Shown here piece after piece: positions 13,441 to 43,246 of a stretch of DNA of 64,000 bases. The stretch spans positions 2,151,988-2,215,987 of the forward strand of contig MU004234.1 of the NCBI GenBank assembly GCA_010405405.1, read 5' to 3'. Below the pieces are notes generated by a model. It worked only from the letters and a program-made list of their open reading frames with translations. It did not search any database and was not told the DNA's origin. The position numbers and the translations under genes are program-made. Source of the stretch: Microthyrium microscopicum (taxonomy: Eukaryota; Ascomycota; Dothideomycetes; Microthyriales; Microthyriaceae). The first letter of the stretch is position 1. Each line of letters starts with the position of its first letter.

Positions 13441-14790
13441 TTTAGTAAAGAAATAGTGTAGTGACTATTAAAAAAAGATTAAATATTACAATATTTCCAA
13501 AGGTAAATTAGACTTACTAAAAACCTCTCATTAAATCTAAAACGTATATTATTATAAAGAGCTAAATAAGAAGAACACGTATATCTAAAAATTATTATAA
13601 TTCAAGCTATAGTTATAGAGTGCTTAGCGATTAAAAACTATTAGATTCTTTAGTAGTTTAGGTTAAAGTTAGATCCCAAACTTTAAGATTAATTTTAGTA
13701 CGCTAACCCCAAACTAGTAATAATTATAGGTTTTAATGCCATAAGCAGTTATTTACACCAATTAGATGCAGTTAAACTAGTGGTAGAAGTTAAACGTGTT
13801 AATTACAGTGGTTCAACGGCGTTCGTAGTATAACCGATCAAGTGAGAAATACTGCATCACGAATTTCGTGATACCTCCAGCCTGCCGAGTGGGGAAGGCG
13901 GCGGAGTTGAGCAGGATTTATGTATTGAAGAAGGACGACATTTCGGTCGTGGTCCAGTCCACATCCTCAAGCATTTGCCTGATCGGCAACTGCGGAGTAA
14001 TCTCCAGTAGATCCTACATTTCGCCTTGATCTACGACTACGATGCTTGAGTGCTCTGAGCATTTTGCGTTGAGATCCCAGAAAGATGAAGACTTTCAAGT
14101 CGCGTGCATCGTGACATTTAAGCAATGCCAGCGGAGTGACTTCCGAAAAAGCAATACGCGCTTTTCGAGCACCGTGAATCATTACATTCAATTTGTCGTG
14201 TTTACTGAGTTATCCTTTTCTAGTGGCACATGAAACTCGAGAACGCATCGTGTAGTCAAAGTCTAGACTCGCCGCCCATATATTCAGCCAGCATGAACAA
14301 ACTTTTTATGCAAAAGATGTCCAATGTTCACGGGTCCCAAAATAACTCTAAAAAAGTGGCTTTCGCTAAATCTCAGAGCCGCGAAGCTAAGAAAGATAGA
14401 TCCAAGGCCCAGTGCGGTCCATTGCTAGTTCGTTTAAAGCACACAAGCTGAACTTCCCCTTTTAACTTTCGTACGCGTTACAACATTCAATCAGTCACCT
14501 TTTTGATTTGATATTGAAAAACTCGCCGACGTGCATCGTGAACGACGTGTTTGCCAAGTTACGAAAACTCCCAAGGCGTTGACAAGCTGCAACACAGATG
14601 CGGTCGATATTGGTCTGGAAACTTACTTGGACTGTCATATACCTTGACTCGAATTATCAAAGCCTATCGTGAAGTCGAAATGGACATTGTAACAGGTGGG
14701 TACGACATCTTCGTTCAGGAGATGCTGTCAATGATGTCCGATTCAACTTCTCGAAACCTTTGGAGGTTTGTCACGCACAACTTCAAAGTA
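13441..14790. other. Gene-free segment between two transposon relics
   Basis: The first 350 bp are AT-rich and probably belong to the hAT element. From about 13.8 kb composition is normal, with short accidental open frames on both strands but no family motif, intron structure or consistent frame. A perfect 17-bp palindrome ATCACGAATTTCGTGAT lies at 13,856-13,872. Nothing else is recognised. Confidence 0.55.
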
Positions 14791-14858
14791 ACGCCAAGCA
14801 TAGGAAGTTTTGCCAACAGGGATATTTGCTACCCCTCATCCATAGATCTAGATATTTC
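14791..14858 (+). repeat. Left terminal inverted repeat of the Fot1-like element
   Basis: This pairs with 16,514-16,581. The first 27 bases differ at one position only; the next 26 or so are diverged; a second matched block AGATCTAGAT follows, then both decay into AT-rich sequence. The flanking TA marks the target site. Confidence 0.88.
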
Positions 14859-14905
14859 AACTCTCAATAAAACAATTAAATAATGCTTAAATTTGTTATT
14901 TTAAA

Positions 14906-16459
14906 ATGAAAAATACTCCTAAAGAAATTAACAATGCTATAGAACGTTAGAAATCTAGAGAATTTAAAACGTTGCGCAAGGCTAAGCGTAAAACTAGTAT
15001 TTCTAGGCCTATAATTATAATAAGATTAAATAGATCTTCTATATACTACGAAGCCTATGAATCTTAATAGAAAATGCCTCCTCTTATAGAGAATTACTTA
15101 GTAAACTAGATTCTAGCTAAAAATTAAGTAAAATAAGCTTTTACTTATACTCGTATCTATTCTATAGCTTCTAAGATATTAGAATTTACTAGTTTACTAT
15201 TTACTCTAAGCTAAAATTAGTATATAAATTTCGTATATTATTATCTATAAATTAAAACGATTACTACTTAAAAAGTTAAAATAGACTAAGTAGAAGTATA
15301 TATATTAAGTAATATAAATGCGTTTTTTAATCGTCTAGAAGCAATTTAAACTAAATATTATATTTTACTACTAAATAAATAGAATATAGATAAATCTAGC
15401 CTCTAAATTAGCGATTCTAGCTAAGAAGTAGTTATTATAAGCTCTTTAAATAAGGCTAGTAAAGCAATTATAAAGTAATCTTTAAGAGTAAAGTAGAATA
15501 TTATAATTAAAGCTATTTTAGCTACTAGGGCTAAAATTGACTTACTAATTATCTTTATTGCTAAATCTATATAGTCTATATAGCTACTGTCTTATCTTAA
15601 TCTAGAAGAATGCAAAGATTAGAGATTTACGTATTTTAGTAATAGTTAAACCTCTAACGATATAGGCGTTTACTAGCTTTAGGAATACTTTATTCTATAA
15701 ATATAACCTTCTCGTTAAAAGACATAGTAATTATTAATACTAAATAATTATAGTTCTTACTATTTTTACTAGTTTATACAAATTTGCTTAAAAAATTAAA
15801 TTATTTTACTATATATTCTACTATATACTTTATATATTTTATAGTCTCTAGATCTTAGAGTCTTTAAACCTATTAAAATATTATATAGACGTAAATTGTC
15901 TAAGTTTAATAGTATATTTAATAAATCTACTATTTCTTAAAAGGATTTTATTACTTTATATTATAAATTGCGTCCTAAAGTAATAGATAAAGATAATATT
16001 CTTACTAGCTTTAAAAAATCTAGAATCTAGCTACTTAATTACAAAATACTACTATCTTCTTATTTTACTTTATAAAATAATCTAAAGGAGTTAAATACTA
16101 CTTAAAATATACCTATTTAGCCTTTTTAAAATTAAAATTTAAGCCTAGAAGAGCTATTAATAGTTAAATAAAGAATATGTGTTAAAAACTTAGCCTTAAA
16201 GTGTAGAATTGCAAAACTTAAAGCATAACTAGTATTTACTATAATAGAGTTATCTACTATAAATAAAAGAATTAAGGTTCTTAAAGCCCTAAAGAAGCGT
16301 AAAAGAGTTAAAAAATAAGATACTACTACTAAATTATATATAGTAATTAATTTTTTAGGAACTTAAGAGCTAGCTGCTTTAAAAGTAAAGAAAGAGGCAG
16401 AACGGGCTAAAAGACGCAAAAAAAGAGCTATAGCAACAAGCCATAAAGCAAGTAATTAA
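14906..16459 (+). pseudogene. Decayed Fot1/pogo transposase gene
   Basis: A single reading frame of 518 codons runs from ATG at 14,906 to TAA at 16,459 with no net frameshift, but it is interrupted by dozens of TAA and TAG codons. Retained motifs in order include PPLIENYL (helix-turn-helix region), LLILNNYSSY (from the DDE-region LILDGHGSH motif), LLYILLYTLYIL then SLDLRVFKPIK (from LPPHTSHVLQPLDLGVF) and a Lys/Arg-rich tail near AERAKRRKKRA. These are the hallmarks of Fot1-type transposases. Stops sit mainly where Gln or Trp codons stood, which fits RIP on both strands. It cannot make active enzyme. The length agrees with the usual 500-550 residues of the family. Confidence 0.88.
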
Positions 16460-16513
16460 GCATATATTAAATTTATTTAATTTGCATTTAATTTAATTAA
16501 GTTATGTTAATTT

Positions 16514-16581
16514 AAACATCTAGATCTAACTCTGTTGGGGTGGTAAAACTCTACGTTGGCAAAACTCCCTATGCTTGGCGT
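16514..16581 (-). repeat. Right terminal inverted repeat of the Fot1-like element
   Basis: Read on the minus strand it begins ACGCCAAGCATAGGGAG, matching the left end with one change in 27 bases, then diverges and matches again at AGATCTAGAT. TA follows on the outer side. Confidence 0.88.
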
Positions 16582-16753
16582 TACTTCTTTACACTTGTGG
16601 CTTGATTACTTGACTGATTGTGTTCCTACTGTCAATTTCTGCAAGATCTTCTAATATCTTACTCGACTCTCGCATTGAGGCATTGTAAACATGAAGGAGT
16701 TAAGCAGGACGGTGGGGTATTCCATTGTCTAGACCGGTAGTACCACGTCTGGT

Positions 16754-19281
16754 CTAAATCAGTCGAATATCTTGACCTTTCCCGGCTTCCATACGTGCAA
16801 TGCAGTTTTCAGTTAGTTGCCTTTCAGATAGATGTATCCAACCCACCCTCTTCCAACCAAGACCATCACGAGTTTCAGCCTTTTGCACAATCAAAGCCCA
16901 CGCTTCCGTGTTCTTGATATCTTCATGAGGCTCCTCCGTTGACTTCTCCAGTACGCGCTTATAAGCCAGAAGCAAAGCATGCAAACCCATGTCATCAATA
17001 GCATCACGATCAACGTCCTTGAGCACATCGAACATAACAGTATGGCCAAAAGTATCGCCGCCCTCAACCACAAGTCTCGGATACCGTAGATGAGGAAGCT
17101 CATCCTCACCTTCCTCTTTCTCCGTGCTCTTGCTCATTGGTACCAAAATACCCTTAAGCTGAATATACCCACCACTAACCTCACCATACGGATTCTGTCC
17201 GTCGATTGAAACACTAACATCCTCAATACTAACAAGGTCCGTCCACGTCCCCAATGAACTAACAGCCATATCACCCTCGAGACTCGCCCAACTCCACGAC
17301 GGCGCGCGATACTCGTCGAGATACGTCCCGCGTCCCCCGACACACTGCCACGCCAACCCCTCCACCAAATTCTTCCTCCACAAACCAGCAGCATACTCCC
17401 CACCCGGCTTCCAATTGCTCTTCTTCTCCTCGCTCATCTGATCCCTCCACAACTCATCAAACCTCCTCGCAAAGCCCGCCATCGCCGGCAATCTATCACT
17501 CTTCTTCGTAAGCACCTTATTTGTATAAGTGCGCACCAAATTCGACCACGCAACAGGTCCACGGTACAAGAAATCTTCGAAACCAGGATCAGGAGTCATA
17601 GTCTCAATATCAAACCACTCAATCTTCTCATCATGCTCAAACCCATCCTCCGTCACAAATTCATGGCCTACACACTCAAACGCAATCTCGCGTGTGCCAA
17701 AGTGTATGTTGCGTGGACTCAGTCTGCGCTCCTGCAATACCCATGCCCTTTGACTCAACGGCTCCTCTTCAGCTTCTAGGCAGCGATGGCCATACGCGGC
17801 GTGGCTAATTGGGATCTCGAATGCCATAACCTCTACGCCCTCAGGAGTATATGGCACGCTCACATACGTCCTCTCCTTCCTCTCGCCTAGGAAGCCGGCT
17901 GAATCATCGCTGGCGCGCTGTGCGGAGATGGTGATGTGGGCGTTACTGTACACGCTTGCCATTTTGGCGCTCTCACGCTCCCAGTCGGCTCGATCATCTT
18001 GGCAGATACACAGACTATCTATCCAGAGATATCGTATCCCCAGCGCGCGCGTGACGAAGATGGCATCTTGGAATGTCTGCGCTAGCTCCGCGACAGGGAA
18101 TCCGCGCTTGCGGGACTCGAGCGTTGCTTTAGTGGTGAGGGGATGGCTGGATGTGCCCCAGCAGTGGCTGAGGGAGGCGTAGGCGCCGTAGATGTTGGTG
18201 GTGGGTTCTAGGAGGGAGATGATGTCTGGCTGGGAACTTGGTGTAGTCGATAGTGCGGGTGATGTGCCAATGTCGAGGATGCGGCTGGGCAGGGGAGTTT
18301 GCCCTGGCTGCGGGTGGTTGTGGTTGGCGACGCAGTGCGTTAGCCACGACTGGAAGCGTTGCAGTGTTGCTGGGGTCTTGGGGTTTGGGTCGACTGGTCT
18401 TCCGCGGATTTGGGAGGCCAGCGGACTATCTATAGAGCTGTTAGCAAAATTTGCGGTTGCCGCATGGGGATGTAAAGAAGCAGTAGAGATGTATGGTAGT
18501 ATCAGGTCCTCTTTTGATCGCAAGAGAAATCTGGCAGGAAATGACAAGAACTGACAAGAACATAAAACGGTCGCAAAACATGTTCGATCAAGCTCTATGC
18601 CGAAATAAACTTGAACATATCAATCAGAACACAAACCAGCGAAAACAATCCCCAATTTTCACCAGACATTCAACTCTAATATCCACATGGAGTGGCTTTC
18701 GGAGAATTAGGCCATATACGCCCATAGATCTAGTATGCCGCAATTGATGGCGAAGAATCGCTCACTTGCAAACTGACTCGTCGACAACAGGGCAAAACGT
18801 TTCAAAACAACACAGCACAAAACCTACCATCATCCACTGCAAAGCCCGCTCCAGCCACAACATATACTTCATGTGAACCCGAATCCCTCCTCTTTTCCGA
18901 CCAATTCAGCACCAGAAACCCCTGCTGACCCTCTCGTCTTGCACACACCCAGAAGCGTCCATCCGGTCCGCCTGCCTCATCGTAGAAGCGCCCCACCTCG
19001 TCCGCCACATGCCGCTCCCTTGCCTCCAAGACTCTGTTATAGCCCGCAAGTATCAACGAGCATAACCCGCATGTCTGGGCAGATTGGCGTAGGAGGTCGG
19101 GGGATTGGTGGTGTGGGAGACCGAGTGGGCGCTGGAGGTTTATGGGCTCGGGATGGGGATTCTGGAGGAAGGGAACGAGGTCTTTTTCAATGGCGGAGGG
19201 GATGTGGGCGTATGGAAGCCAGGAAGGGAAGGGTGGGAGGGAGGAGAAGGGGATGGAGGAGCAGGCTGAGCAGAGAGGCAT
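16754..19281 (-). CDS. HET-domain protein (heterokaryon-incompatibility family)
   Basis: Two exons are inferred, 19,281-18,828 and 18,429-16,754. The 398-bp intron has donor GTAGGT, branch-like GCTAAC and acceptor CTATAG, and phase is preserved; the product is 709 residues. The N-terminus has MPLCSACSSIPF and TCGLCSLIL, the Cys-rich leader common in this family. The HET domain follows, with YASLSHCWG, the segment IRYLWIDSLCICQD, then ERESAKMASVYSNA and a later QRAWVLQER. Such proteins take part in non-self recognition and programmed cell death after hyphal fusion, though most family members have no assayed role. The C-terminal 250 residues carry no domain I can name. A downstream Met in exon 2 would skip the Cys-rich leader and is less likely. 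The gene borders the transposon-rich region. Confidence 0.85.
18430..18827 (-). other. Inferred intron of the HET gene
   Basis: The intron is unusually long for this window (398 bp against a typical 45-130 bp). The donor on the minus strand is G|GTAGGT and the acceptor is CTATAG|AT. Splicing joins a phase-1 codon to give Asp-Asp-Asp-Ser-Pro. A retained-intron or two-intron form cannot be excluded. Confidence 0.6.
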
Positions 19282-20952
19282 TGTGGGTAATGGAGAGTTG
19301 GGAGGATGGTGGATTATGCTTCAAGACTCAAGAGGGAAAGGTATGCTATTTTTAGGAAGTGAAGAGTTTAAGACATTGTGATTTCGGTAGATATATGGAG
19401 TGCTAGGCGGAAGCTTCGATGTTGCATACGAACTTCGAAGGCTGTGTGCTGACATCCATTGCACTATTCTCGCATGGGAAGACAGGCCGGTCAAGCGACA
19501 GATGGAAGCAAACACTGGACACCTCAGCCACTTTAGACTCGAATTCTCCCATCGTTTCGTCTACCTGACTGATCGAGAATGTAATTCAATTGGTGTGAAA
19601 TAGCTGGGGGGTTCGATGTTTTGCTTTTTCCACTTTTATTCTCACCACTTCTCTTCTTTCCCTCATCAACAACATCTCCATCTCTTCATGTTGCACTGCC
19701 CAACAATTACAACTCTTTCAGTATCAACATCTCTTACTCGGCTGCTTCCGAAATCCTTCATTTCAAATTGAGATCTGCCGGGAGCAAAGATCAGAGCTAG
19801 TAGCAACCACGCTCTCCGCAACGCATCATGATCCGTAACAAGCTGTCGAATCGCACAACTCTTTCTCACCATTGCATTATTCCCACGACACATCTAAGCA
19901 TAAAGTCTTGCCCCAGGTAATTTTGAAGAATCTTCCTTGGGGTGTGCGGGAAGAGTAGCCCAGATTACCCACTACTGCGCATATCTGACGTTAGATCTTG
20001 CCATGCCCCTGCATGATTCCAGACACTTGACATCGCGTGGCGCCTTCGACACTCTCAACATCTGCACACCTATCGCCTCATCTCAAACCCTGTGGCTACG
20101 AGTAGCTGTTCAGTTTGGTTTGAGCCTTTTATGTGGTCTCGGACAATCTGTTCTACCCGGGTTCTAGTTTAAGCCTTGCTGTCAGCTCTAGTCTGAAAAC
20201 TTCTTTTCGCGATTTCGCTTCGACTGAGGCTCATGATATACGTCAACGTTTTATACCCTTACGGCGTACTCATGGGTATCGTCGATCGAAAAGATGCTTG
20301 ATACCGCAAAGCCTAGAGACTTGCTGAATCCATGGCTCCCATCAGTCGTATCGCGTCAATTGCCTCAACCACCAAAAGCGCCTCCCATGTTTCCAATCTG
20401 CACAGCAACCGTTTTGACAGCAGTCCACGGCAAGCTCCCGTAGAGGTCAAGCCCCACTGTTCCGGGTCTGAAATTCATGATCTGCAGATGTGAAGCGCTC
20501 ACGACACTCTCTACCTGTACGCTTGGCAACACCTTCTTTGGGCACATACGCACTAACCTCGCCCTCTAGACTCTGAACATGTACCAACTGGCATGATTCC
20601 TAAACCGGTCCAGCCAGTCATCATGCAGCTTTTGAAAATAATCTGTCAAAACATGCGTGGAAACGAACAAGAAACTATTACTCCGCGATTGATTGACGTG
20701 AGACTAACTTAGTGCTTAAACAGTAAGCATCCGTACCATCGAGGCCTTAAACAACATCTCTAGAGTCTAAGGGTATAAGAATAGCCCTCTCCAATGTCAA
20801 ACTATTGCGTTTATCCATCCTGATTCATCGCTGACGAGGCTGTGTTGTTCTCATCTCTTATATCTTACTTTCGTTCACCCCTTCACGTCCTTTTGCCTTG
20901 GCACTTTTAACAGTCACTGTTTACTGCTTAATTTTTACTCAGTCTAATACTA
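19282..20952. other. Intergenic region between divergent HET and peroxidase genes
   Basis: This 1.67-kb region should hold both promoters. A pyrimidine-rich run with TATATCTTACTTTCG lies at about 20,860, roughly 90 bp before the peroxidase ATG, and could be the start region of that transcript. Open frames here are short and lack family signals. No RNA gene is recognised. Confidence 0.5.
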
Positions 20953-22183: not shown

Positions 22184-23453
22184 GTGGTGGGGTAATGGTG
22201 GTGTAGAAGGGTTGTTTTTTAGTTGTTAGTTGGAGCGAGTGTAGTGATTGCCGAGCTCGCAGACTGGAGGTAGCAGCGTTGTCTTTTTATTTCCTATTTT
22301 CACACTTGGCTGGGTAATCTTTATTACGGATAGACTTGACGTCTTCTCATGTATAATAGTTGGGCATTAATGACAATTTATATTTTTTTTGGTAACTCTT
22401 TGCTTTCAAAATGTAGCGATGCCTACTCGAATCATGCCCATATATATATAGTCTTTAGGAAAGAAAATGGCACAGAAGAATGGGTAATGAATCTGCACCC
22501 TTTAAATGTAATAAGGCTGAGTCTCAGCCTCGTCTGCCCTGACAACCACCAACCACCAAACACAAAACAACAACACCTCCTACCCCAAAAAAAGATGACC
22601 AAAAAAATAGCAAGTTACTAGAAAGTTACCACCTGCTAGAAAAAACGTCATCATTTGCTTGTCCACTACCCAACCATAAAAACGGTAGAGAACTGGCATA
22701 TCGAATTGCAGGGTCCTTCCAGATAGGCGCTATCAATATAATTCTAGCTCTGTTGACCACCAGAACCAGTGATTTCAGTTAACTTGGCATATCAATTCTC
22801 GGAATATGATCATCACGAATCATAGCGGAATGCCGCAAAATTCCGAGGCCGTTGCCGTGAACCGGTTGTGAACATCCTTGGGTTTTGTGACTCGAACTTC
22901 AATAATGTAGAAGATGCTCAAACGATATTTATAGCAAGCAACCTGGTCGCCATGCAAAGCATCGGACACTAAGAGTTGTCCCTTGTGTGAGGTCCAGATA
23001 AGGATAAATACTAACCAGGAAGAACATCAACTCCAATTCATACCTTAACTTATCTACGCTAACAAGCGGTAAACTGGCATACTGAATTTAACTACAAATT
23101 TTCTTGCTTGAAGAACAGTTGAAATCTCAAAAACCCTTGATTTATTGATAGTAAACGAAGCGGGATAAGCATGCGTGATAAGAATCCCATAACGACAGGC
23201 TATTCGTGCAAGCATCCCAGTCTAGCAATATGCAGGCTCGTAGGCCCCTGATTGACTGTAACGTCGAGAACCGGTCAGAAAGGGAGCTTCACGTCCATCA
23301 ATGCCCGATATCTCTAGAGATATGACGTACAGGATAGATCAAGCCAGATGGATCTCGTACTATCGAATTGGAACGTACCATAAGTACGGTGGATGGTGTC
23401 CCTGTAATTATTTGGCCGGCTACCAATTTTGCTCTGCTCAGTTATACTGAAAA
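22184..23453. other. Intergenic region upstream of the polyketide synthase
   Basis: This 1.27-kb region contains the peroxidase 3' end and the polyketide synthase promoter. Open frames are short and unconvincing. No regulatory motif is strong enough to name. Confidence 0.5.
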
Positions 23454-26400
23454 ATGCAAGAGTATACAGGAAATGAGGTTGCCATCATTGGCATGGCTTG
23501 TCGAACAGCAGGAGCCAATTCTCCCTCTGAGCTCTGGGATCTCCTGGAAAGTTCAAAAGACGTACAACAGGAAATCACGCGCTTCAATTCCTCGGCATAT
23601 CACAACCCAGAATCTAAACACCAACGAGGTCTCTCCAGTGTCAACCGGGCTTACCTCATGGACGATGAGCTCGTTGAATGCTTTGATCATGCGTTCTTTC
23701 ACATCACCCCAAACGAAGCGAGGTGTATGGATCCCCAACAGCGAAATTTGCTCGAAGTTGCTTACGAAGCTATCGAAAGCGCCGGAATACCTCTCAACAA
23801 GTTCAAGGACACCGATAGCGCTGTATTCGCAGCTATCGATGGCTGTGACTATGCCTCAATCATAGGCAAAGATCTCGACAGCATTCCACGATATGCAGCC
23901 ACAGGAATAGCAGGGTGTATGGCTGCGAATAGGATCAGCTACTTCTTCAATCTTTCAGGCCCCAGTATGGTGATAGACACTGCTTGCTCTAGTTCAATGA
24001 CAGCTTTACATCAGGCAGTCAGATCACTGCAGTCTGGAGACAGTGGCATGGCTATCGTTTGTGGCGCAAAAATGATACTTACTCCCGATATGTTCATTCC
24101 ATCCTCAGAAATGGGGTTTCTGTCTCCCAGCGGACGCTGCCAGTCCTTTGATGCAGATGCGGACGGGTATGGCAGAGGTGAAGGTGCGATAGCACTTTTG
24201 TTGAAGCCACTGAAAGATGCCATCGCAGATTCCGACCCTATCAGAGCTGTTCTCAAAGGCATTCGAATCAATCATGATGGCAGGACACAGGGTATAACGA
24301 TGCCATCTGCGGAAGCCCAAGAAAGCAATATACGTAGACTGTATAGTTCCGAAGGAATAGATTCAGACACTATTCAATATGTAGAAGCTCATGTACGTCA
24401 GACCCAATGCGTGAAGATCTGGTCAAGTTGATACAGCATACAGGGAACTGGAACCACAGTGGGTGATCTCAAAGAAATAACAGCTCTCGATTCAATTTTT
24501 AATGGACCCTCGACAAGGCAAACAGATTCGCTAACAGTTGGTTCAATCAAAAGCAACATCGGCCACTTGGAAGCAACGGCAGGATTGGCGGGAATCCTGA
24601 AGACAGTACTTTGTCTAGAACAGGGTCGCATACCGGCACAAATGAATCTCAGGAGGCGGAATCCAGCAGTTCAGTTTGACAGAATGAATATCCCAACTTC
24701 TATTATGGAATGGCCAAAGACCTCAGGAAAAGTTCGCAGAGCTGCAGTCAATTGTTTTGGTGCTGGCGGGACAAATGGTCATTGTGTACTTGAGGCTTCC
24801 ATGGCACAGAGACCTCTAGTGGAGACAAATTCGAGACCATATTTGTTCATGGTGTCTGCCTCCAGTCCGGCAGCTTTATCAACAACTTCCAACAGATTGG
24901 CGGACCATGTGGAAAAGAATGAGCTTGATACTAGAGACTTGGCATATACACTGTTGTCCAGGAGGTCGACATTTTCATCAACAATGTTCTTCGCCGCATC
25001 CAGTAACGAGGATTTTATCAAACAGGCTCGCAAATCTTCTCCTACTTTACCTTCCGTCTCAGCGCTCAAAGCAACAAACATCTGTTGGATATTTACTGGA
25101 CAAGGGGCGCAATGGCCTCGCATGGGGACAGAATTACTCGAACACTCTCCAGTCTTTCGAGAGACCATATCGATGTGCGAGCAGCATCTACAAGCGCTGT
25201 CAACTGCCCCCTCGTGGACTCTTTCCGAAGAGCTCAGCAAATTTACGGCTCAAAGTAATATTTATAAAGCCAGCTTTTCGCAGCCGCTCACCACTGCGGT
25301 CCAGCTAGGTCTCGTTGAATTGTGGAAGGCCTGGGGTTTTCATCCAAGCATGGTGGTAGGTCATTCGTCCGGTGAGATAGCAGCGGCATATGCTGCAGGC
25401 CATCTGTCTCTTCGAGACGCTATCGTTGTCTCATACTTGCGTGGTGTGGCAATGACTGAACTTAATGAAACCGGAGACGAGACAAAACCAAAGGGCGCCA
25501 TGTGTGCAATTGGTCTTTCTGAGCAGGATGCACTGAAGCTTCTAAGCAATTATGATGACAAGGTCCAACTCGCTGCAGTAAACTCTCCTACAGGCTGCAC
25601 GCTCTCAGGTGATCGAACTGCTGTCGAAGAAATTGGAAGCTACTGCGGCGAGACTGGCAATTTCTTTCGAAAGTTGCAAGTCGATGTTGCGTACCACTCT
25701 GCTCACGTATTACCGGTCGCTTGCTCCTATCGCGAGGCACTGGAACAGGCCGGCATTGGCCCACTGCGTGGAAAGGACGATAGCAAGATGTTTTCCTCAG
25801 TGACTGGACAACTCCAGGACTCGGAAGCATGCACACCACACTACTGGGCCGACAATATGACAGGAACTGTTAAGTTTACTCAGGCACTTCATGCATGCGC
25901 TCAATATAATCCCGAGTTAAGCGCTTGTTTTGAGATTGGTCCTCACCCAGCACTGCGCGGCCCAACTCTAGAAACACTGCAAATCGAACAAAAGAATATG
26001 CCATATTTCGCTTCTTGTGTTAGAGGTCAGGATGACTTTGCCTGCCAGCTAGAAACGGCTGGATCTCTGCTAGCTTCAGAGATTGACCTCAACACCAAAG
26101 CGATCAACGATGCTGAAGGTGCCCAAATCATCACAAATTTGCCGTCTCACCTATGGAATCATTCAACACGGCTGTGGTGCGAATCTAGAGTGAGTCATAA
26201 TGCTATGTTCAAAAAGTTTCCACGTCATCCTTTACTTGGATCTCGTTATATGGAAGATACGAATCAAAATCCCTCCTGGCGCTGTCAAATTAGCATTGAC
26301 GAGCTCCCCTGGCGGCTGACGGACGGCCAAGCATTACCAGATGCGGCATTTGTGTTGATGGCACTTGAGGCCTCCAAACAGGTTCTCCAAAAGGAAATGG

Positions 26401-29201
26401 CAACTGCTGGTAGTATATGCTTACGTGACTTGCAGATTCAAAGTGCTTTCTTGGTTGAAGAACTCTTGAGCTCGTCTAGTTCGGATTTACATTTTAGCAG
26501 CAACAGAATGGAAGACTCTGATGAGTATAGTTCCCTCATATTCTCAACTCAAACTGACGAGACGTTGCCTTGTACCAAACATTGCTCCGGGATCTTTGGC
26601 TTGGACACAAGTACTGTTGATCTTGAAATTCACAACATTAAAGGTACGACAGTATGCACACAGAAGCATGATCCATTTATACTTGACAACGTGCAGGACA
26701 TGGGTTTGCTTCTACACTCACGTCTCACAGATTTGAACCTCTCGAAGGGTATGGCGACCGCCAAGATCGACACCACGGAGTGCAAATTGGATTCTTTGGG
26801 CCTGAAAGATGCCTTCCAAATGGCTCAATCAGCTGCCATAGCCCATCGCTCCGGCATTAGTAGCTCGCTTCGTGCCATTGGACGACTGAACTTTTTCTTG
26901 AGGTCGGACGCCGCTCCTATGTTATCTGTATCAGCAAGATCAGGGACCATCGAGGGAAAACCAGGAACATCATTTGAGATTGGCGATCGCCTGATAGCCA
27001 AGGACCTCCAATTCACGATCGATCAAAACAAGGCTCAGCCAATGCCTCTGCGCTCGCTTTTCTACAAGGCTCACAGTGAGCTCGACATTGCAGATGTCGC
27101 GAATGATAGTCATTCTTCGCTAGCGGAGGTTCTGCTCTTGGCCACTCACAAATGGCCAATGTGCGATATTGGTTTATTCAACCTTGACGAACAAGACGAA
27201 GACGAGGTCCTCAGACTAGCCCAATCTTTCGACAGACCCCGCTTCAGATCGATTCAGATTGTTGGTGCAGATGAGAAGGTCATCGATGAGTCTATCAAGA
27301 GAGTTAGGAAGGTTCAGGCTGGCAGCAAGTTTCACTTGACACTGATCGGTGATGGCTCCGCGACCGAGGATCATACCGAGACCATTCATGAAGACGGATC
27401 TATTTTCTTGAAACATGGGAATACCAATGATGGGAAAGATTGGCATCATCAGAAGTGGTGTTCTGGCGCCCAAATACTTCCTCGTCCGTCTGATATCCTA
27501 GTGTTTCAGGCTCCGGGAATAGAGAGTGATATTACTGTGCCAGGCGTCACACTGATTTCTCTGGACATTGAATCTATCGCGAAGTTCTCCCGGACCTGGT
27601 CGACGTCATATCATGCGATAGTAATTGACATTATTGACTCCTCAGTTGGTGTGGCGTGGTCGGGAGCAATCATTCTACCATGGCTTCAAAATATGCTCAG
27701 ATTGGCCCAGAGCATAAGTTGGATCACCACCAAGTCGTCGTCAACTCCGTCAGTTTGCACTACCACGGCATTGCTTAGGACCTTGCAATCCGAGCAACCG
27801 TCGCTCAAAATACGCCATGTTGTATATGAGGAGCATCAGACCCAAGATATGGATGGACATATTCATGAGCTTCTGAGTGATTGGGATCGTGCATTCAGTG
27901 AGTCAGAGCAAGATCTCCGAAGTGGTCACAAAAAGATTACTCGATGGCGTCCAGATGATGAACTTTCTGTTCGCACTAGCGTTTTCCCAGGCTCCCAAGA
28001 GGGTGATATTACGCAGCTCGGCCGTATTGAACTATCCACAGATGGCGCTTATGTCGTGATAGGCGGCCTTGGTGGTTTGGGCCGCTTTATCTGCGCCTGG
28101 CTTGTTAAACATGGCGCGAAGCAAGTAGTTGCTATGTCCAGATCAGGTCCAGAAGCCAAGGGAGCAAAGAGCTTAGAAGCAGAACTCGAAGCTATTGGAG
28201 GCCATCTTCAAGTCCTCAAATGTGACGCGTGTGATGAAGAAGCTCTGTCCAAGGCTTTGGAAAGAATAAGAGCAACTCATGCTGTTAAGGGTGTCATCAA
28301 CATGGCCATGCTGCTCGGAGATGCACCTCTAGCGTCAATGACCGCCTCAGAATGGGATCGCCCCCTTAAGTTGAAGGTAGACTCTAGCCGGTATCTGCAT
28401 GAGCTGACGGCAGAAGACAAACCCGATCTCTTTATTCTCTTCTCCTCAATTGCCAGTGTCCTTGGAAACCGTAACCAGGCTGGCTACAATGTTGGCAACG
28501 CATATGTCAACTCTCTTGCAGAATTTCGGCGAACTCAGCGACTACCTGCAGTGGCTATCGCCCTCGGCGCAGTAACAGATATGGGCGTTCTTCACGAAAT
28601 GGGTAGAACAAATATGCTGGAAACATTGACTAGAAGCGGGTTAGTACATCTGCAACAACATCATTTGGACAAAATCATGCAAGCGGCTGTCTCCGAATGC
28701 AGGGACCCAAACTCAACTAGAGCTGTGATACTGACAGGCCTTAACATGTTCGAGCGTGTAGATGGCAAGCTCATAGGAATGCAAGATCAAACAATGCTCT
28801 ATTGGACGGAACTGCCCGAATTTGGACACTTGCAATACCACAAGAGGACGTGGCACAGCGCAAGGGAAGAGAAAGATCAGAGTCTACTGGAGCGTATCAA
28901 ATCACTTTCAGGAAAGAATGCACTCGATGCCCTGGAGTCAGCATTTCTGCAATTCCTTGCCAATCTTCTGGGCTTTAGTATCTCAGATCTTAACACGAAA
29001 AGCAGTTTACTGGACCATGGGCTTGATTCTCTCGGTGCTGTGACTTGTCAATACTGGTTTCATAGAGGTGAAATAACAACACTGCAAATGAGTACTAGCT
29101 GCTAACGATATACAGAGCTTGAAGTCAATGTCTCTGTCCAGCAGATTTTCTTGACTGGCAGTATTAATGACCTGCTTGTGCAAGTCCAGCAGAAGATATG
29201 A
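23454..29201 (+). CDS. Reducing-type polyketide synthase, KS-AT-DH(degenerate)-KR-ACP
   Basis: Exons 23,454-24,392, 24,444-29,067 and 29,116-29,201 give 1,882 residues with phases consistent throughout. Splicing restores VEAHGTGTTVGD across intron 1 and WFHRELEVN across intron 2. The ketosynthase keeps Cys178 (DTACSSS), His313 and His354 (SNIGHLEA). The acyltransferase has FTGQGAQWPRMG and Ser621 in GHSSGE. The dehydratase fold begins near His908 (HPLLGSR), but the usual DHxxxGxxxxP segment is replaced by PWRLTDGQALP without the catalytic His. The central 350 residues resemble no methyltransferase or enoylreductase. The ketoreductase has GGLGGLGR at about 1520 and a Ser/Tyr region (LFSSIASV, AGYNVGNAY). 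The carrier protein has Ser1842 in DHGLDSLG. Fungal reducing synthases usually reach 2,300-2,500 residues, so this is a shortened form. The likely product is a beta-hydroxy polyketide chain unless partners act in trans; no product can be named. Confidence 0.92.
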
Positions 29202-34235: not shown

Positions 34236-37200
34236 CTAGGTATTCATAGTCGCCTCAGAAATTGGCATAAGAGCATGCGTAGTCGCTGATTCCTCGCCAG
34301 TTGAGCTATTAGCCTTCAATCCCTCCATCAAAACCAGTTCTGTATATCTAACTCCCAGCAGGCTTTCAAGAAGAGGACCTCGAAGTGGCGTCAAATCCTG
34401 AAGAAGCGAATCAAGCTTTTGTCGCCACGCCTTGATGTTAATGTCATAATGATTGGTAGTTTTCGTCACCACAAGAGTGTGAGGAACTCTAGACTTGTCA
34501 GTTTGACGTCTAACAAGTCGTTTATCAAGGAGGGATCCCAAGTGACTACGGTCCCGGGCATTGCAAGAGAAGCGACCAATTTGCTCCGTCGGGCTGGCAA
34601 GGAATCGCTTAAGGGCCCTACATGGCCCAAGAGCAGAGCAAGAGAGCTCTCCACATGTCGGTGTTGGCATGGACCAGCCTTTGCGAGAAACCGGTCTTGC
34701 CTGTTCATAGGATGTTTTGATCTGTTCAAGAACCTCTACAACCACTTTTAATGCTGCTGGTATAGTCTTGTGGTTTGCCTCTGATTCCAAGCATCGAGTG
34801 AGGGAGCGGATGAATTTGATGCGACGCTGTAGCCTTTCTCCCTGGATAATCGAACTTGAAAGTACAGTAAACGAACAGGCACTAATGAGCGAGTTGACTT
34901 CTTCCCCAAAACCTGGGATAGTAATCAGAGCGTTAACCAAGGTAAGGAAGTCCTCAAAGTAGGAGTTGCCCCCTTTTGGACTGTATTTCGGGGTTTCATT
35001 GGTTTCGCGAAAATCATAAGGGGTTAGTCCCATAATTGCAGCTTTGCCTCGCAAAACAGGCCTCGACAGATAAACGATATCCTCGAGAGACAGGTATACG
35101 CGACATTGACTACACATTTGAAGCAAAATCGCCATATTGGACTCTCGACGATTGTTGTTCATGAACTCGGGCATGAATCTGTTAAAGTTAGCGTTAGTAT
35201 CTGACATAGAGCATATCTAAAACGCCGAAAGACTGATGTCTAGACCAGGGACATGTATGACTTACTTGTTCATCACCCATTTGGCCCCTGAGACCCGAAT
35301 AAGTCCAATTATTGAAGCTCGAACGCGGTACGGGTACATGATGGCATATGAATGCAGCTCCCTTTCTACTCTGGAGACTATCCAGTCTCTTAAACTGGTC
35401 CGTAATGTATTGTACTTTCCGTGTTCCTGGTCGTGATCGCGTTTCGCCCCCTCTTCCTGTTGGCTTTCGTCCCCGCCTTCACTCGCGCTTTCACTGTCTT
35501 CTTCACTGTCGTTTCCACTGTCATTTTCATTGCTGTTTCCACTGTCATTTTCATTGCTGTTTTCGCTGTCATTTTCACTGTCGGTTTTGGTGTCGTTCTC
35601 ACTGTCGTCTTCACTGTCATCTTCTTCATCGTCTTCACATTCCGTCTCAGTTTCGTCGTTGTTTTCCTCTTCGGTGTATTTGCCCTGACTTTTCCATCGA
35701 GAATCAATGGACAGGAAAATTTTCAGAAAGTTCTCAACATTCATATTTTCAGGTAAGATCGCCTCCAGCCTGCAATTTGTAAGCACAAAACAAGTAAGCA
35801 TAGGAACTACAAACCAGGCATGCCATTTGGGGACACCGTTAGCATCAACAGCAGTGTGATAACTGATCATAGTACTCATGGCGTCGATCAGATCATCAGA
35901 GAAAATGAAGCCCCTAGCATCAAGCAGGATGGCAAGTCCACGACGACAAGCCCCTAAGAACCCGAGTTTCATGGTCCATGTTGTGATGTGGTTAGCAGTG
36001 CGGCGATTGTTCTCCAATGTGTGACCAAGGATGTGCTCCACGTTCCTAAGCAGGGGAGTGTTATTTGGTTGCTTCAATGCGTCTTCGCATACGAGGTCGA
36101 TGAATTGGCGAGAGAACTCATACCGACTGTCGTAAAGAGCCTTGAATAGGCGATCTTGAGGAACTATCAACATGACCTACAATCAACAAGTTAGCCCGGA
36201 TTGTGGGGTAATGATACTGAAGCACCGTATTTGGCGCGCAATAAGGATGCGCGGAGGGGTTTATGAGATCGTACCGAAGCTTTGTGCTGACATTCTGCTT
36301 CCATCATCGTGTGACGGATACTATCGCCATCTTCATCACTCCCAGAGTCATCCTCGCTATTGGACTTCTCATATAACCACTTTTGAAGCAGCTCATTTGG
36401 CTGAATTGGGGCCCCACCGACAACATGGGTCCCATCTAATGTTCTGATGTCCTCTAAGATGGTATCATCTTCCGAACAACCATGGAATTCTTCATGTTCT
36501 TCATCCATGGTGTGTTTCATATTTGCAAGAAAGACATAATAGCCCAATTCCGGGCATAAGGATTGCAGTAGTTATGCCGCTGACCGTTCGCGTCCGTCCA
36601 GGTTGTCGATTTTGAGACTGGCAAAAGTATACTGATAATGCATAATATACACCAGTTTGTTATGGGGCATGAGCTGCGGCCAATCGATCAGCAGTTTGCG
36701 TAGCATGGTGTGTGTTTCCATCATCGACTCAGCTGTGCATATTTCTTGGCCTGCGTTCTGGTATAGATTGCTCGTCAGAGCAAGTCGGTAGCCACTTTCG
36801 ATCAGTGTGCTCTGTGGAACAACATCAGAGTACCACGCGAGAGTTGTAAGGGCATATTCCGATGGAGGAGCAGGTTTTATCACTAGGCGTCTTTGTGTCC
36901 CGGCATGAAAGATCCGCATATCACCCCCGGTGTGTTTAGAGGGCAATAGTAAGATGAAAGTGCCAAATGTTCCCGGAATCTTCGTTGTAGCTTTTTGAGG
37001 GTCGAACACTGCATCTTTCCCGTACAGAACCAGTTTCGAAGGCTTACATCCAATGTTGCCCTGCAATATGCCCAACTGGTCTAGAGAAATCTTAGTAAGA
37101 GATAGAAAGTAGTCGTTCCAAAAAGGATTGCGGCATTGGAATTGATCGGTGTCGAAACTCCATATATTCATCTCACTCCCATCTCCTCCTCTAACAGCAG

Positions 37201-37438
37201 CTTGCGTGATAAGGGATTCGGCGTCGCGCGAGCATAGTGGTAACGGTATTGACCCACATCCCTCGACATCTAATCCTGGGCTGCAAAATGTGGTGGAGAA
37301 GGTTGAGGCTACGAATGAACCTTGTGGTTTGGAATAGTCGAGAGTATAGCGCAACTTCGTAATGAAGTTCCACTCTATATTTGCTCGAGTTTCGCCATAC
37401 TCTTTCTCGAGCGCGCTGATGCCATTGGCATCGTCCAT
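34236..37438 (-). pseudogene. 2-oxoglutarate/Fe(II) oxygenase-like paralog A, full length but with in-frame stop and no metal ligands
   Basis: Exons 37,438-36,275, 36,176-35,266 and 35,178-34,236 fit the splice sites of paralog C exactly (1,006 codons). The start is uncertain: Met37438 is the first in-frame ATG, and sequence upstream stays open without one. The oxygenase domain is recognisable (FGTFILLLPSKHTGG, TLAWYSDV, ESGYRLALT), but the HxD site reads FDPQKATT and the distal His is Pro (SDVVPQS), so iron binding should fail. TAA at 36,572-36,574 stands where paralogs have Gln; the frame continues open with GYYVFLANM after it. The middle domain starts VMLIVPQDRLFKAL and holds an Asp/Glu/Ser/Asn repeat tract. 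The C-terminal domain keeps GWSMPTPTCGELSCS, RALKRFLASP and PHTLVVTK. It could be a recent pseudogene, a read-through gene or a sequence error; conservation of everything downstream argues that loss is recent. Confidence 0.72.
35509..35580. repeat. 24-bp coding tandem repeat in paralog A
   Basis: Three 24-bp units of the type CTGTTTCCACTGTCATTTTC plus ATTG lie inside the middle exon and, on the minus strand, encode an octapeptide rich in Ser, Asn, Glu and Asp (such as SNENDSGN). A looser acidic tract extends over about 35,480-35,660. Paralog C has its acidic run elsewhere, near its N-terminus, so the repeat arose after the duplication. Confidence 0.85.
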
Positions 37439-37879
37439 GTCTTGGTAGATGTTAATGAGTACTTGATGATTAATCCGATCATCAATCGTTTCGGCGCGAG
37501 TCCACAGATATGCAGTATAATCGCTCCCTCGCTTGGTAGGGCGACCAAAAATGGTCTTTTTCGTCAAGTGAGATGCTTTGCACTTGTTGCTCTTCCTTGG
37601 TATCCATACGATTTCGACTACTCTATCTACAAAGATGACGTTCTAGGGCGAAATCACGGTCGCGTCGTAACAACATGGATAAAGTGGAGACTTCCACACT
37701 ACTCCCTGACGCCACCAGAAATACGACGCGTAGGTCGCGCGCTATCTCGTGAGAATTACTAACTTGCGAAGGACCAGAACCATTTCTTTATATTTTGCAT
37801 TACTGACATGGGAAACGACACGGTGTTGAAGGTTTCGAACAATTAATCGAGGAATACAATGCGTCGGATCTCAACCTGA
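37439..37879. other. Region between paralogs A and B
   Basis: The first 130 bp stay open in the frame of paralog A without an ATG. A separate ATG frame near 37,600 (MDTKEEQQVQSISLDEK) could mark an original start if a small intron or frame change lies between. The rest shows nothing recognisable. Confidence 0.4.
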
Positions 37880-38035
37880 TTCAAACTCCCAAAGGTGTAT
37901 ACAAAGTTCCAACCAACTTTCGATCTGCGAGGGCACTTTCCCATCCAATTTTCCATTGATGTTCACTGTCACAGCCAACCCTTCAAGGACCACTTTTCAA
38001 AGACACCCAATGTGAAACTCAACTCAGTGATCATT
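37880..38035 (-). pseudogene. Decayed remainder of the middle domain of paralog B
   Basis: Just beyond the stop codon of paralog B, the minus strand contains HIGCL, a stop, then KVVLEGLAVTVNI. This lines up with LGFLGACRRGLAI of paralog A and CRSGLAVSLI of paralog C at the expected distance. The likeness then fades, and no trace of the C-terminal Cys domain is seen before paralog A begins. The alignment is short and by eye. Confidence 0.45.
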
Positions 38036-39468
38036 TTAGGTATTGCTGACCGAGCGGCTTTGCAGTGATTTCGCGCGAATCTGCTCGAGATTCGTTCGCA
38101 AAGCAGTGTTGTTTGGCTGTTTTTGTGCATCTTCGGACAGGATGTTTATAAACTGCTCGGATACTGTGTATCGAGGATGAGAAAGGGCTTTGAACAGTTG
38201 ATCTTGTGGGACTATCACCAAGACCTATTTCCATCATATCAGTAACACAAACACACAATGGAATAAAATCGCAATAGGGAGCATACCGAGGCTGAATGGT
38301 GACATTTTGAAGGAGCTTTAACGCTCTTTGACTTTTTCTTGGCATATGGGTTCGGAAGGAAGTCTTCCTCCCCATAGGGATCTTCATTATCCAGATTAAA
38401 CTGCCAATCCTGAATCACATCTGTTGGCTGCAAAAGACCTCTTTTGAGCACTGGCGTTCCACTAAAAGTGACGATATTGCATAAGGATGCCGTATTGTCG
38501 CTACAGCCCTTGAAATCTCCCTTACGAGAGGCGTTCGAATTATGGTCCATATTGGCCAAGAAGACGTAGAACCCATTCGGAGGACATACTGCGTGCAGTC
38601 GCTGGGCGATGATTTCTTCAGGTCCGTCCAGTTTATCGAGACGGAGACTGGCTGTATCATATGGATGGTGCATGATAGAAACTATCTTGTTTTGCGTTAG
38701 AGAACCTTTCCAGCCTTCGAGATGCTTTTTGAGATCGCTATTGAATTTCAGCATCGATTCGGCTGTAGGTGAGTAGTAGTCATCGATCAGAGTGCATGTC
38801 AGGAAGAGCCTGGCTCCACTCTCAATTAGATCGCTTTGGTGGACGACATCGTTGTACCAGGCAAACGTAGAAATCCCTTCCTCGGACGACATAACTGGCT
38901 CGAAAGAATGCTCCTCCTGGTGCCCCGGCATGAGAAAGCGAACACGGCCGCCAGAACTCCTCGATGGTAAGCACAGAACCAGCGTGCCAAAACCGTCTTC
39001 CGTTTCTCCAGAATCTTGTCGTGGGTCGAAATCGCTGCCCTTTGTAGAGAGCACCAATTTCGGGAGGGTACGGCGAAAGCCACCTCGTACCCCAAGCTTC
39101 ATCGCAACCTCCGCAACCGCAGAGTTGAAGTAACGCCCCCAGTTCGGGTTGCGGCACTCAAACTGTTCTTCTAATTCAAAGTCTAGTGTCTTCTCGTCCT
39201 GGACATGGCTTTCGTCAGTCCAGATGTTGGTCCGAACATGCTTGATGATGGCTTCGGCTTGCTCGTGATCAAAAGGTAGTTTTATACGTCCATAACCCTT
39301 GAGGTACAAGTCAGGGTCGATGTACTGAGATTCGCGATGAAAGGTCGCTATTGGGCCGTAGGGTTCCTCACGCTCGAGTATGGACAGGAGCGTATTCTTG
39401 TAAATCCATGGCTTATCGGTGGTGAAAGGAGCAAAGTCAAACTGGTCTAGGTTCCCGTATGCATTCAT
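38036..39468 (-). CDS. 2-oxoglutarate/Fe(II) oxygenase-like paralog B, C-terminally truncated
   Basis: Exons 39,468-38,287 and 38,224-38,036 give 456 residues from a true ATG. The oxygenase domain shows LVLCLPSRSSGG, STFAWYNDV and ESGARLFLT. At the metal site the first His is Arg (FDPRQDS), although Asp and the distal His (DVVHQS) remain, so the triad is incomplete and activity is doubtful. The second exon begins VLVIVPQDQLFKAL, the same splice point and motif as paralogs A and C, but it ends after about 62 codons at SVSNT. Decayed homologous sequence continues for a short way (37,880-38,035), and the C-terminal Cys domain is absent. It may still make a short protein or be a pseudogene. Confidence 0.65.
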
Positions 39469-40142
39469 GTCTTCGAAGCTATGGTGTGATGCCGCTAGGG
39501 GTCAGAAAGATTAGGAATGCAGCCAAGGGAAGATGAGAACCCTCGCGCGACTTGAGGATGAGGGAACTGCAGTTGAATATTTTGTCTTGTTCAAATTTCA
39601 AAACAGTCGGATTGGGTGGTTCGAAATGCGAACGCCACCGTTTTCGCAAAACGCGTCAACCTTGTACAAGTGGCAGGCTGGAAGAGGCGCGTTCACATCA
39701 CACGCCACATACGTAGTCTCCAAATTTGATGACACTGTTGAAGGGAATTTCTGCGCAGAAGATGAAGTTGGAAAGCTGCGTTGAGAAAATAACAGGTGTC
39801 AACAGCTACAATCCCGTTGTGGAAAACTAAGGCCTCTAACCCCATCTTTAAGGTGGATCCACATATCATGCGTACGAATAGTGTACCAGTTTTGATTAAG
39901 CGAGCAAACTGCATAGATTCGCTGCAAGAATCCAAGAACAATAGATGAATAGATATGCAGCAGCGCCCGCTTGCCAACGCGAAGCTGCGCTCGAAAATGC
40001 TTTCGATGACTCAAAGTACGTGGAAGAAGCTATCGAACTCTTTGCTTCATGATGCTGAAATCAGCCCGTAAGACTGAAAACAGCATATGAGCCCGGACTG
40101 CCCGCCCTTGACCTCTCATTTTTTTGTGAGTTAGTTAGGCAG
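39469..40142. other. Intergenic region between paralogs B and C
   Basis: About 670 bp separate the end of paralog C from the start of paralog B. No gene is supported and no remnant of a fourth paralog was noticed. Confidence 0.5.
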
Positions 40143-43100
40143 TTAGGTCAGGTCGACGACTTCTACGAACTTCCTCTTGGTTCCAACAACAGGTGCGGCG
40201 GGCCCTCTGTTGAGGTTACCGCCAGATGCTGGCATCAGGTGATGTGTGTTCGCAGGCTCTTGTGCTGGGACGTTGCCTTTCAATAGTCGTCCCACAGAAA
40301 AGTAATGATCATATTCGCTGTCAAATAGATTCTGTAGAAACGTGCTTCTGATCGTTTGGAGACTTTGATGGAATCCTTCGACTTCACTCGTCCAGCTTTT
40401 GAGCAATACGTCGTATTCTGTACGTTTCTTGGTGACCACAAGAGTAAAAGGGCTGCCGGACTGTTCAATATGAGAGTCCAGAAATCGGCCGTCAAGGTTG
40501 TATTTAAGATGCTTCCGCATCTCGCCATTGCGCCTGATATGGCATACTCGCTCAATTGGATCGGCCAGGAAGCGATCCAGCTCAAGACAAGGACTGCACG
40601 ACATGGTTGAGCACTTAACCAATGGCAAGGCCCATCCATTCCCTGGCATCGGTCTTTTACCTTCGAAGTATCTCGCGGCGTTGTCCAGTAGGCTGATGAT
40701 GAGGTCTCTGATCGCTTGCAATGTCGAGAGCCCTATCCATGCTGGCATTGATTCGGTAAGCTCGTGAATGAACGGTAATTGACGCATGACATTGTGACCA
40801 CTTTGAGAGTTTGGGTCAGAGAAGTTAAGCCAGGATGCGGTTATCACCGCATCCATCTCCTCGACGAGTTTAAGTTCCAGCATGTTACTAACCAGTCGAA
40901 GGAATTTGTTGCAAGATGTCGCTCCATAGTGAAAATTGTGGCCCGTCAGCGCAAGAGTGGACGCTTTTGCTTTCAACACAACCCTGAAAATATCAAGAAT
41001 ATCTTGGTTATTCAAAAGCTTCTTGCCCTGAGAAGCTAGAAGAAGAAGAAACTCCGTGGTATTCTCCTGCTTGCTTTCTCGCAAGAACTCCGGCACAAAA
41101 CTGAACCAAGAAATTAGCTTCATGTCGAAGAACGTTTGTTGCACAATGGCCACACGATGAAGAAGTTCACTGCCATCCGCTCCTCTAGAGACTTACTTGT
41201 CGAAAAACCAATCGCGCCCATTAAAGTGGAGGAGGTTTAGAACTATTGGCATCTGTTGCGTAGACAAAGAGTGCGCAAACGACGGTACCTTTTCGCATAG
41301 CAGTGAAGATATCCAAGTTTTGAAGTCGACTCTCAAGGCGCCTCCTGACAGGAGAGGTGTTATAGCTACAAATATCTTGAACAAATTCGGAACAGTCATC
41401 GGAGGGGTGATATCGAGGAGCCTAAAACATGTTAGCGAAGAAAAATGAAGGCGATGTTTCACCAACCATTGTTTCCATTGGGGCGAGTAACCGCCTATTT
41501 CAGAAGCCTTTTGGTTGATCGTGCTAGCGATACTTTCGGCCACCGACAGTGGGAAGCTGTTGTATATCAGGGAAACTGCGAGGCCGCTGCGACAGATTTC
41601 TGGAAACCCGAGTCGTATACTCCAGTCAATCACCAAGGCCAGCTTTTGCAATTTCCATTTAGAAGAAAGCTTTAGAAACGCTTCAACATCGCAGCGTAGT
41701 CTAGTATTGCCTGGCTGCTGGAGTGACTGTCTGCAAAGACTAATCAGAAACTCGTCTGGTATTGGATTGTAGTCGCCTCGAATAGCTTGGTAGAGTCGAC
41801 TTTGTGGCACTATCATCACGACCTAGATCTCATCAGCTCTCATTTCCCGCAACAATGCGGTGTGGTCAAAGTTTTGCAGAATCTGCCCTTCACAGGTTCC
41901 GGTGTTCTGGAAAGCAATCTTCTAGTTGATAATAGGTAGTGAGCGGGACATACCGAATTGTGATAGCGAAGAGATGGGGGCATACTCTCATTGCCAGTGA
42001 ACTCACCCTCCTCTTCACTGTCTGGAGTGCGTTGGAATGGTTCATCCTGAAGTATATCTTCTATCTCAACTGACACCTTGTCTGTTACCGGTACGCCAGT
42101 CAGGGTTCTAATATTTTTCAAGGTGGTATCATCTCCAAGATCATCGTCATCGCCATAGTCTTCTATATGCCAATGATCCAGAGTCGCCAGAAAGATATAG
42201 AACCCTTTGACTGATGAGACCGTCTTCAATTGTTGCACTACTGCCTTATCACGCCCTTTTAGGCTTTGGAGCTTGAGGCTTTCTTGAGAGTACTGATGAT
42301 CCAGAATGTAAATTTGTTGGTTGGATGAAAAGTGGTCGTGCCAGCCAGCAAGCACACGTTGAGTGAGAATGTCCTGTTTCAGCATTAGACCAGCAGAGCT
42401 CTTGGAAATCCCGGAAGCACTTTGGATTAAATTGTAGGTCAAAACCAAGCGATATCCACTCTCCACGGGTTTAATCTCGTGAGTAACATCAGAATACCAG
42501 GCGAGAGTTGAAAAATCGAATGTGGACCTCGGAGCTGTTTTGAATATTTTTGTGCTTCCAGCGTGAGAGACGTGTACCTCGCCACCAGTATGCTTCGATG
42601 GCAGACACACGACGAGAGTGCCAAACATACCCAACACTTTTTCGGTATCTTTATGGGGCTTGAAGAACGCCCCCGTCTCGTATAACAGTAACTTATAGAG
42701 TTGTGCATCAATCGAGCCCTTCACCCCTAGTTCTTGGCCTGCTTTGTTGACTAACGCGGTGATATAAGCAGTCCAGGTAGGATTCTCGCATTGAAACTGG
42801 TTGGAATTGAGCTCCCAGGTGTTCCGGACAGAGGTGTCAACAAGGGTCTCGTTGCCTTTGCCAAAAGGCGCCTGTTGGCTAACGTTGATAATAGCTTGAG
42901 CTTCGCGTGGTAACAAGGGCAGAGGAATAAGTCCACGTCCCTCGATATTCAAGCCTGGATTCACAAATGTTGGGGTGTGGTACTCTGCTGCAAAGGAGCC
43001 AGCAGTCTCGACGCCGTCAAGTAGCTCACACAGCTTGGTCTTGGTTTCCGATTCTGGGGTGGACTCGCTCCCATCGTCTTCATCGTCTTCGTCGTCTTCT

Positions 43101-43246
43101 TCGTCCTCATCATCTTCACCGTCCTCATCCTCTTCGCTCGTCTCCGGAACTTCATCACTGGGGTTCTCGTCAAATGCCTCGTTGCTGACTTCATTGGCCC
43201 TCGGTGGATATGAATCACCTCTCATGCTTGCATTGCGGAATGGCAT
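40143..43246 (-). CDS. Three-domain 2-oxoglutarate/Fe(II) oxygenase, paralog C (apparently intact)
   Basis: Exons 43,246-41,954, 41,822-41,197 and 41,100-40,143 give 958 residues with correct phases. Residues 31-69 are mostly Asp and Glu. The oxygenase domain (about 95-280) resembles prolyl 4-hydroxylase-type enzymes: FKPHKDTEK supplies His198 and Asp200, FGTLVVCLPSKHTGG follows, SDVTHE gives His256 and ESGYRLVLT gives Arg266 for 2-oxoglutarate. After residue 431 comes a middle domain opening VVMIVPQSRLYQAI, then from about 640 a C-terminal domain with GWALPLVKCSTMSCSPC, LDRFLADPIE and FTLVVTKK, perhaps zinc binding through its Cys residues. The end, GTKRKFVEVVDLT, looks like a nuclear-type basic tail, which is weak evidence. 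The likely chemistry is hydroxylation of a protein or nucleic acid side group; the substrate is unknown. It is the only array copy with a full metal triad. Confidence 0.82.

Follow-up and report, generated by a model that had tools for sequence, protein, structure and literature searches.

Tandem oxygenase paralogs and their iron sites

Analysis of a 64-kb stretch of DNA (the window) from the leaf-litter fungus Microthyrium microscopicum revealed three paralogs, A, B and C, lying in tandem on the minus strand (Table 1). Judged by sequence and by a structural model, C is an Fe(II)/2-oxoglutarate (2OG) oxygenase of the prolyl 4-hydroxylase (P4H)/PHD type. Sequence comparison identified A and B as sister copies beside C that share derived changes at the iron site, A being interrupted and B truncated. 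The initial annotation of this DNA had described a same-strand trio with C as its only complete gene, and its coordinates, strand and order were all found to be correct; C is intact at 943 amino acids (aa), A is stopped by a TAA codon and B ends early. The window was assigned to the M. microscopicum genome because the product of C is identical to BT63DRAFT_454687 (P0001): the spliced model was 100% identical over the compared residues 70-943, and the printed P0001 sequence equals the model throughout.

Comparison of the ligand positions revealed a graded loss among the paralogs, in agreement with the earlier claim: HxD...H in C, RxD...H in B and QxA...P in A. The full set H198/D200/H256/R266 is kept in C (ligand codons CAT/GAT/CAC). 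The first histidine is replaced by arginine in B (Arg/Asp/His; CGA/GAT/CAC), and all three ligands are replaced in A (Gln/Ala/Pro; CAA/GCT/CCA), while the arginine of 2OG-binding type is kept in all three paralogs. Unlike A and B, bacterial and fungal relatives have H198, D200 and H256 invariant in 77 of 77 aligned rows (chosen from 120 listed of 254 matches), and a second set showed HDHR in 63 of 68 rows; both samples were found via words shared with C and are biased towards conserved sites. A and B are among the exceptions in the second set, as are the public entries P0060 (HDHC) and P0075 (a gap at the second His). A further copy in the genome, L033, reads PHKDSEK and LHEV. Profile PF13640 matched C at 29.1 bits, over the curated cut-off of 27, and gave no match to A or B up to E 1. 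The oxygenase core of C has the double-stranded beta-helix fold. A genome search for DIOX_N (PF14226) gave nine matches, none of them in the window.

Table 1. Features of the tandem array (window positions)
Feature	Position	Strand	Remark
Paralog C, complete gene	40143..43246	-	deposited as BT63DRAFT_454687; exons 43246-41954, 41822-41467, 41421-41197, 41100-40143
C PHKDTEK	42638..42658	-	ligands H198 and D200
C VTHEIKP...GYRLVL	42440..42487	-	ligand H256 and 2OG-type Arg266
C VVMIVPQ	41802..41822	-	end of N-terminal region, directly after conserved intron 1
C CSTMSCSPC	40587..40613	-	cysteine cluster at start of R3H-like domain
C VVDLT	40146..40160	-	SUMO-interacting-type motif at the very C-terminus, after KRK stretch
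Paralog B, truncated	38036..39468	-	exons 39468-38287, 38224-38036; 456 aa
B PRQDSGE	39004..39024	-	at the place of PHKDTEK in C
Paralog A, interrupted	34236..37438	-	exons 37438-36275, 36176-35815, 35769-35266, 35178-34236
A PQKATTK	36980..37000	-	at the place of PHKDTEK in C
A TAA, codon 289	36572..36574	-	only in-frame stop in the A model
A TCGELSCSALGPC...DRSHLG	34536..34658	-	C-terminal domain sequence, past the TAA

The 45-base intron of C resembles an open frame and is confirmed by the deposited protein. The corresponding 45-base intron of A was placed by analogy with C, and the four-exon structure of A is a model; the places of introns 2 and 3 are also common to A and C. In B, exon 1 is followed by a brief exon 2 with a stop 62 residues past intron 1; the paralog ends early in the helical part and is without the C-terminal domain, and the spacer after it contained no further coding frames and no similarity match to the rest of the gene. 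An acidic Ser/Asp/Glu/Asn-rich stretch occurs in the solenoid of A (window 35430-35660), and C has no such stretch. With A as query, entries of 544-1732 aa yielded a single match, from Fusarium lateritium, and none from the genome of A itself; a search with B returned a single 409-aa entry.

Domain layout and distribution of the family

In the AlphaFold2 model of C, an oxygenase of P4H/PHD type is followed by a helical solenoid and then by a small C-terminal domain. The core has the same fold as Pseudomonas putida prolyl 4-hydroxylase (PDB 4iw3/4j25) and PHD2/EGLN1, in which the order HxD...H...R is the same as in C. The solved chains of these enzymes comprise about 180-225 residues; C is extended by the solenoid, the R3H-like domain and, at its terminus, a SUMO-interacting-type motif. 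Among the 50 structure matches listed (VIA list) there was no Ofd1/Tpa1, the ribosomal-protein prolyl hydroxylases in which the catalytic domain precedes another beta-helix domain; this excludes nothing. The initial annotation had a middle domain opening with an IVPQ-containing motif; on the model, VVMIVPQ (residues 432-438) overlaps strand 425-437, the last before the helical part, and closes the N-terminal region instead. Read by eye, intron 1, which precedes the motif, matches in position and phase an intron of the genomic copies L033 and L036, and L034 contains a fitting acceptor. The intron is therefore old within the family and does not point to a recent duplication.

In the structural model the small C-terminal domain best resembles R3H domains, that is, nucleic-acid-binding domains. 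The resemblance extends over about 64 residues and is to the R3H domains of Smubp-2 (2lrr) and PARN (1ug8) and to the R3H parts of the 80S-bound FAP protein 7zw0_sh and of KhpB/EloR (9lri). C differs from these domains in having no Pfam match, a lysine at the histidine place and an extra cysteine cluster in front. In a 34-row alignment the R-x3-H arginine occurred in 34 rows and the histidine in 26; C itself lacks the motif, with R820 present and K824 at the His place. Pfam at E 0.05 found no family, R3H PF01424 included, on window 40245-40697, and hhalign of the domain against R3H was weak (Prob 4.8, P 0.0084). A PDB sequence search with the C-terminal profile gave no match; the whole-family profile matched 11 entries weakly, most of them designed helical repeats, with Exportin-T and ribosomal S11 also present and no oxygenase. 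The C-terminal "Cys domain" of the initial annotation does exist, but its cysteines are not what defines it: the modelled fold best resembles R3H, and the CxC..C pattern is missing in rows P0089, P0096, P0107 (Bacteroidota), P0085 and P0091. For the bacterial C-terminal pieces, 35 of 41 were aligned, with L038, L086, L101 and L105 omitted from the folded alignment. The earlier statement that the middle and C-terminal domains match no named family held in the proteins scanned, where no Pfam or NCBIfam model exceeded its cut-off in these parts.

The tail of C, KRKFVEVVDLT, looks like a putative nuclear signal followed by a SUMO-interacting motif. The pattern [PILVM][ILVM]DLT, which we take to be of SUMO-interacting type, was searched in 58 rows of at least 800 aa, 48 of them fungal by name and 10 by their grouping with fungi in the tree. 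It was present within the last 12 residues in 23 rows, C included (14 of the 48 and 9 of the 10), and elsewhere than the tail in none of the 58. Shuffled tails gave a mean of 0.03 matches and at most 1, a comparison that takes no account of kinship, and some of the 23 rows are closely related. All 72 bacterial relatives lacked this VIDLT-type tail, as did 54 other listed rows of at least 700 aa (two fungal by name). Of the 23 motif-bearing rows, 20 have a basic stretch close by, but so do 44 of the 58 overall. The tail of genomic copy L036 reads KRKALEIIDLTEDD. A ends without the motif and B lacks the whole region.

On sequence matches, the family is wider than the initial annotation supposed. 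Its suggestion of an undescribed protein family stands in so far as Pfam, NCBIfam and PADLOC name the oxygenase part only; the layout is not, however, peculiar to this locus, as it recurs at full length in other fungi and the same order of parts is found in bacteria of several phyla. In the protein search with C (best 120 of 254 matches), full-length-type rows were mainly from Ascomycota, with about 23-35% identity over most of C among the matches listed; rusts (Puccinia) and mushrooms (Steccherinum, Mycena) matched between a third and two fifths of it. Rows P0002, P0014, P0081 and P0096 have the part order of C at full length and share motifs with it, e.g. TGN and SPxTL..K. Such relatives are labelled only "2OG-Fe(II) oxygenase", "hypothetical protein" or "Prolyl 4-hydroxylase alpha subunit ...". 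A scan of a bacterial and archaeal genome collection gave 513 pattern matches, 481 of which encode relatives, and the best 80 of the 481 include Verrucomicrobiota, Acidobacteriota, Proteobacteria, Gemmatimonadota and Chlamydiae. HxD was found in 75 of 78 bacterial loci, a conservation that is partly circular since one of the scan patterns contains HxD, and the second-His pattern, which was too strict, in 56 of 78.

The M. microscopicum genome contains at least three other copies that include the later parts. Two lie on contig 6, L033 with an intact oxygenase and L034 with in-frame stops. The third, on contig 14 (L036:1518-4428), has the solenoid, the R3H-like domain and a KRK...IIDLTEDD tail, and no oxygenase core was matched in the 1.9 kb upstream of it. 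L035 and L037 are similar over the oxygenase alone. No description of this layout was found among the titles and abstract openings listed in the literature searches; most subscription journals lay outside the coverage, so that this is no proof. The family is widespread but uncharacterised. Many fungal genes are filed as "prolyl 4-hydroxylase domain", and the terminal SUMO-interacting-type motif together with the R3H-like domain gives a concrete, testable hint at the site of action.

History and possible roles of A and B

A tree of the oxygenase part joined A and B as sisters (100/100) and this pair to C (97/70). Taken alone, A joined C (87/80) and B was unplaced (33/0). Residues that are rare elsewhere were shared 24 times by A and B and twice each by A and C and by B and C; five of the 24 flank ligands. 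Over the 53 codons of the stub that follows intron 1, A and B share 53% identity, and B and C share 29% there over 49 codons; A and C are 27% identical over the whole helical part. Among 46 near-invariant residues 23 are lost in A and 25 in B, 17 of them in both, and most of the QAPFGKG..T..D..VR segment is lost in both. Differences between A and B at codon positions 1/2/3 were 0.46/0.39/0.67, a pattern as under protein constraint; synonymous divergence is saturated. Neutral decay to such divergence would be expected to leave about 11 stops per 424 codons in each of A and B (rows 0.4-0.5); far fewer were found, and the gene models contain no frame shift. Because of the codon-position pattern and the shortage of stops, both were probably read as proteins for most of their separate history. 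The single TAA of A and the truncation of B look like late events.

With moderate confidence, we regard the array as a birth-and-death cluster of an old, unnamed multidomain P4H-type Fe(II)/2OG oxygenase family, in which an A/B pseudo-oxygenase lineage was kept and later broken. The common ancestor of A and B would have lost or altered catalysis and then been held under protein-level constraint for long; it would have duplicated afterwards, and only then would one copy have been broken and the other truncated. The initial annotation had offered a non-catalytic role or very recent decay, and both may apply, with an old loss, long constraint and late breaks. Plain counts of identities (A=C 58, A=B 50, B=C 36) do not single out A and B, and their pairing could be due to long-branch attraction, but the shared rare residues do favour it. 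By codon parsimony, the path CAT->CAA->CGA at the first ligand takes two steps against three for independent losses. This suggests an ancestor already without that ligand, an inference that is weak at this distance.

One alternative, unlikely but serious, is that A and B are ordinary pseudogenes that decayed independently soon after duplication and never had a non-catalytic role. The TAA in A, the missing second half of B, the in-frame stops in L034 and the fast branches of A and B are all consistent with it, as is the failure to find a close ortholog of A, whose one match has 27% identity over 34%. It is opposed by the stops, too few for the divergence, by the unshifted frames of the models and by the 24 shared rare residues, which include neighbours of the active site. 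That A and B are or were catalytically active, through unusual ligands or a new chemistry, is barely credible. Asp, the second His and Arg are kept in B and the frames stayed open for long, but all three ligands are gone in A, both copies have lost most of the segment named above and we know of no natural loss of the first histidine that is tolerated in this fold. It is also very unlikely that the array belongs to a polyketide gene cluster of the window, its oxygenases tailoring a small molecule. By its sequence, the region 23451-29105 looks like a polyketide synthase, and the genes flanking the array include an Oxidored_FMN gene and a multicopper oxidase; however, full-length members of the family also occur on a different contig, the same layout is kept in bacteria, and to our knowledge no tailoring enzyme combines a solenoid, an R3H-like domain and a SUMO-interacting-type tail.

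The pseudo-oxygenase reading as a whole is plausible, not proven. A recent tandem duplication was rejected, since A, B and C have no long DNA match in common (the longest between A and C is 21 bases, and none was reported between B and C) and their protein identity is only 32-38%. Repeat-induced point mutation as the cause of A and B is not supported: their GC content and dinucleotide ratios are near those of C and the right flank.

As for function, the solenoid, R3H-like domain and terminal motif of C may direct its oxygenase to a nuclear partner that is SUMO-marked and bound to RNA or DNA; C would hydroxylate this partner, most likely on proline, with O2 and 2OG. Copies free of catalysis could still engage such partners, as competitors or scaffolds. 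A broader proposal is speculative, and we rate it as improbable: a fungal family of nuclear, SUMO-docked, nucleic-acid-associated hydroxylases, related to the bacterial form, would here have spawned stable pseudo-oxygenases (the A/B lineage and the contig-14 copy) acting via the solenoid and R3H-like parts alone. JARID2-type relatives retain a 2OG-oxygenase fold after the loss of catalysis; they belong to the JmjC class, whereas A and B, today broken or truncated, are P4H-like. Our comparison suggests that A/B-type proteins may have persisted long without enzyme activity before their final decay; if so, the pair represents 2OG oxygenases that outlasted the loss of catalysis.

Bacterial neighbourhoods and surroundings of the array

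A survey of 527 mechanical neighbour frames at 78 bacterial loci (two of 80 had no core frame) did not provide a key to function: the largest recurring groups comprised nine, seven and four loci, so there is no general partner. At nine of the 78 loci the oxygenase is followed on its own strand by a gene for a protein of up to about 290 aa or more, within 300 bases at six (e.g. L052:10415-11290, L053:10442-11317, L058:10349-11230); the one member tested had no Pfam match. At seven of the 78 a member of a primase-helicase group lies at most 4 kb from the oxygenase (L066:3741-6674, L097:6992-9601, L076, L105, L038, L043, L054), and both of the members tested gave a match to Pfam AEP-TOTE, of the TOTE conflict system. 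A role in anti-phage defence was rejected; PADLOC yielded a generic CRISPR-associated 2OG model.

Within the window, the polyketide-synthase-like region consists of two long frames in the same register, split by a stop at 24429-24431 that marks either an intron or a broken gene. The block at 1-20000 is AT-rich, with a GC content of 0.29 and a TpA/ApT ratio of 1.46 (right end, 0.46 and 0.72), and by its composition looks affected by repeat-induced point mutation.
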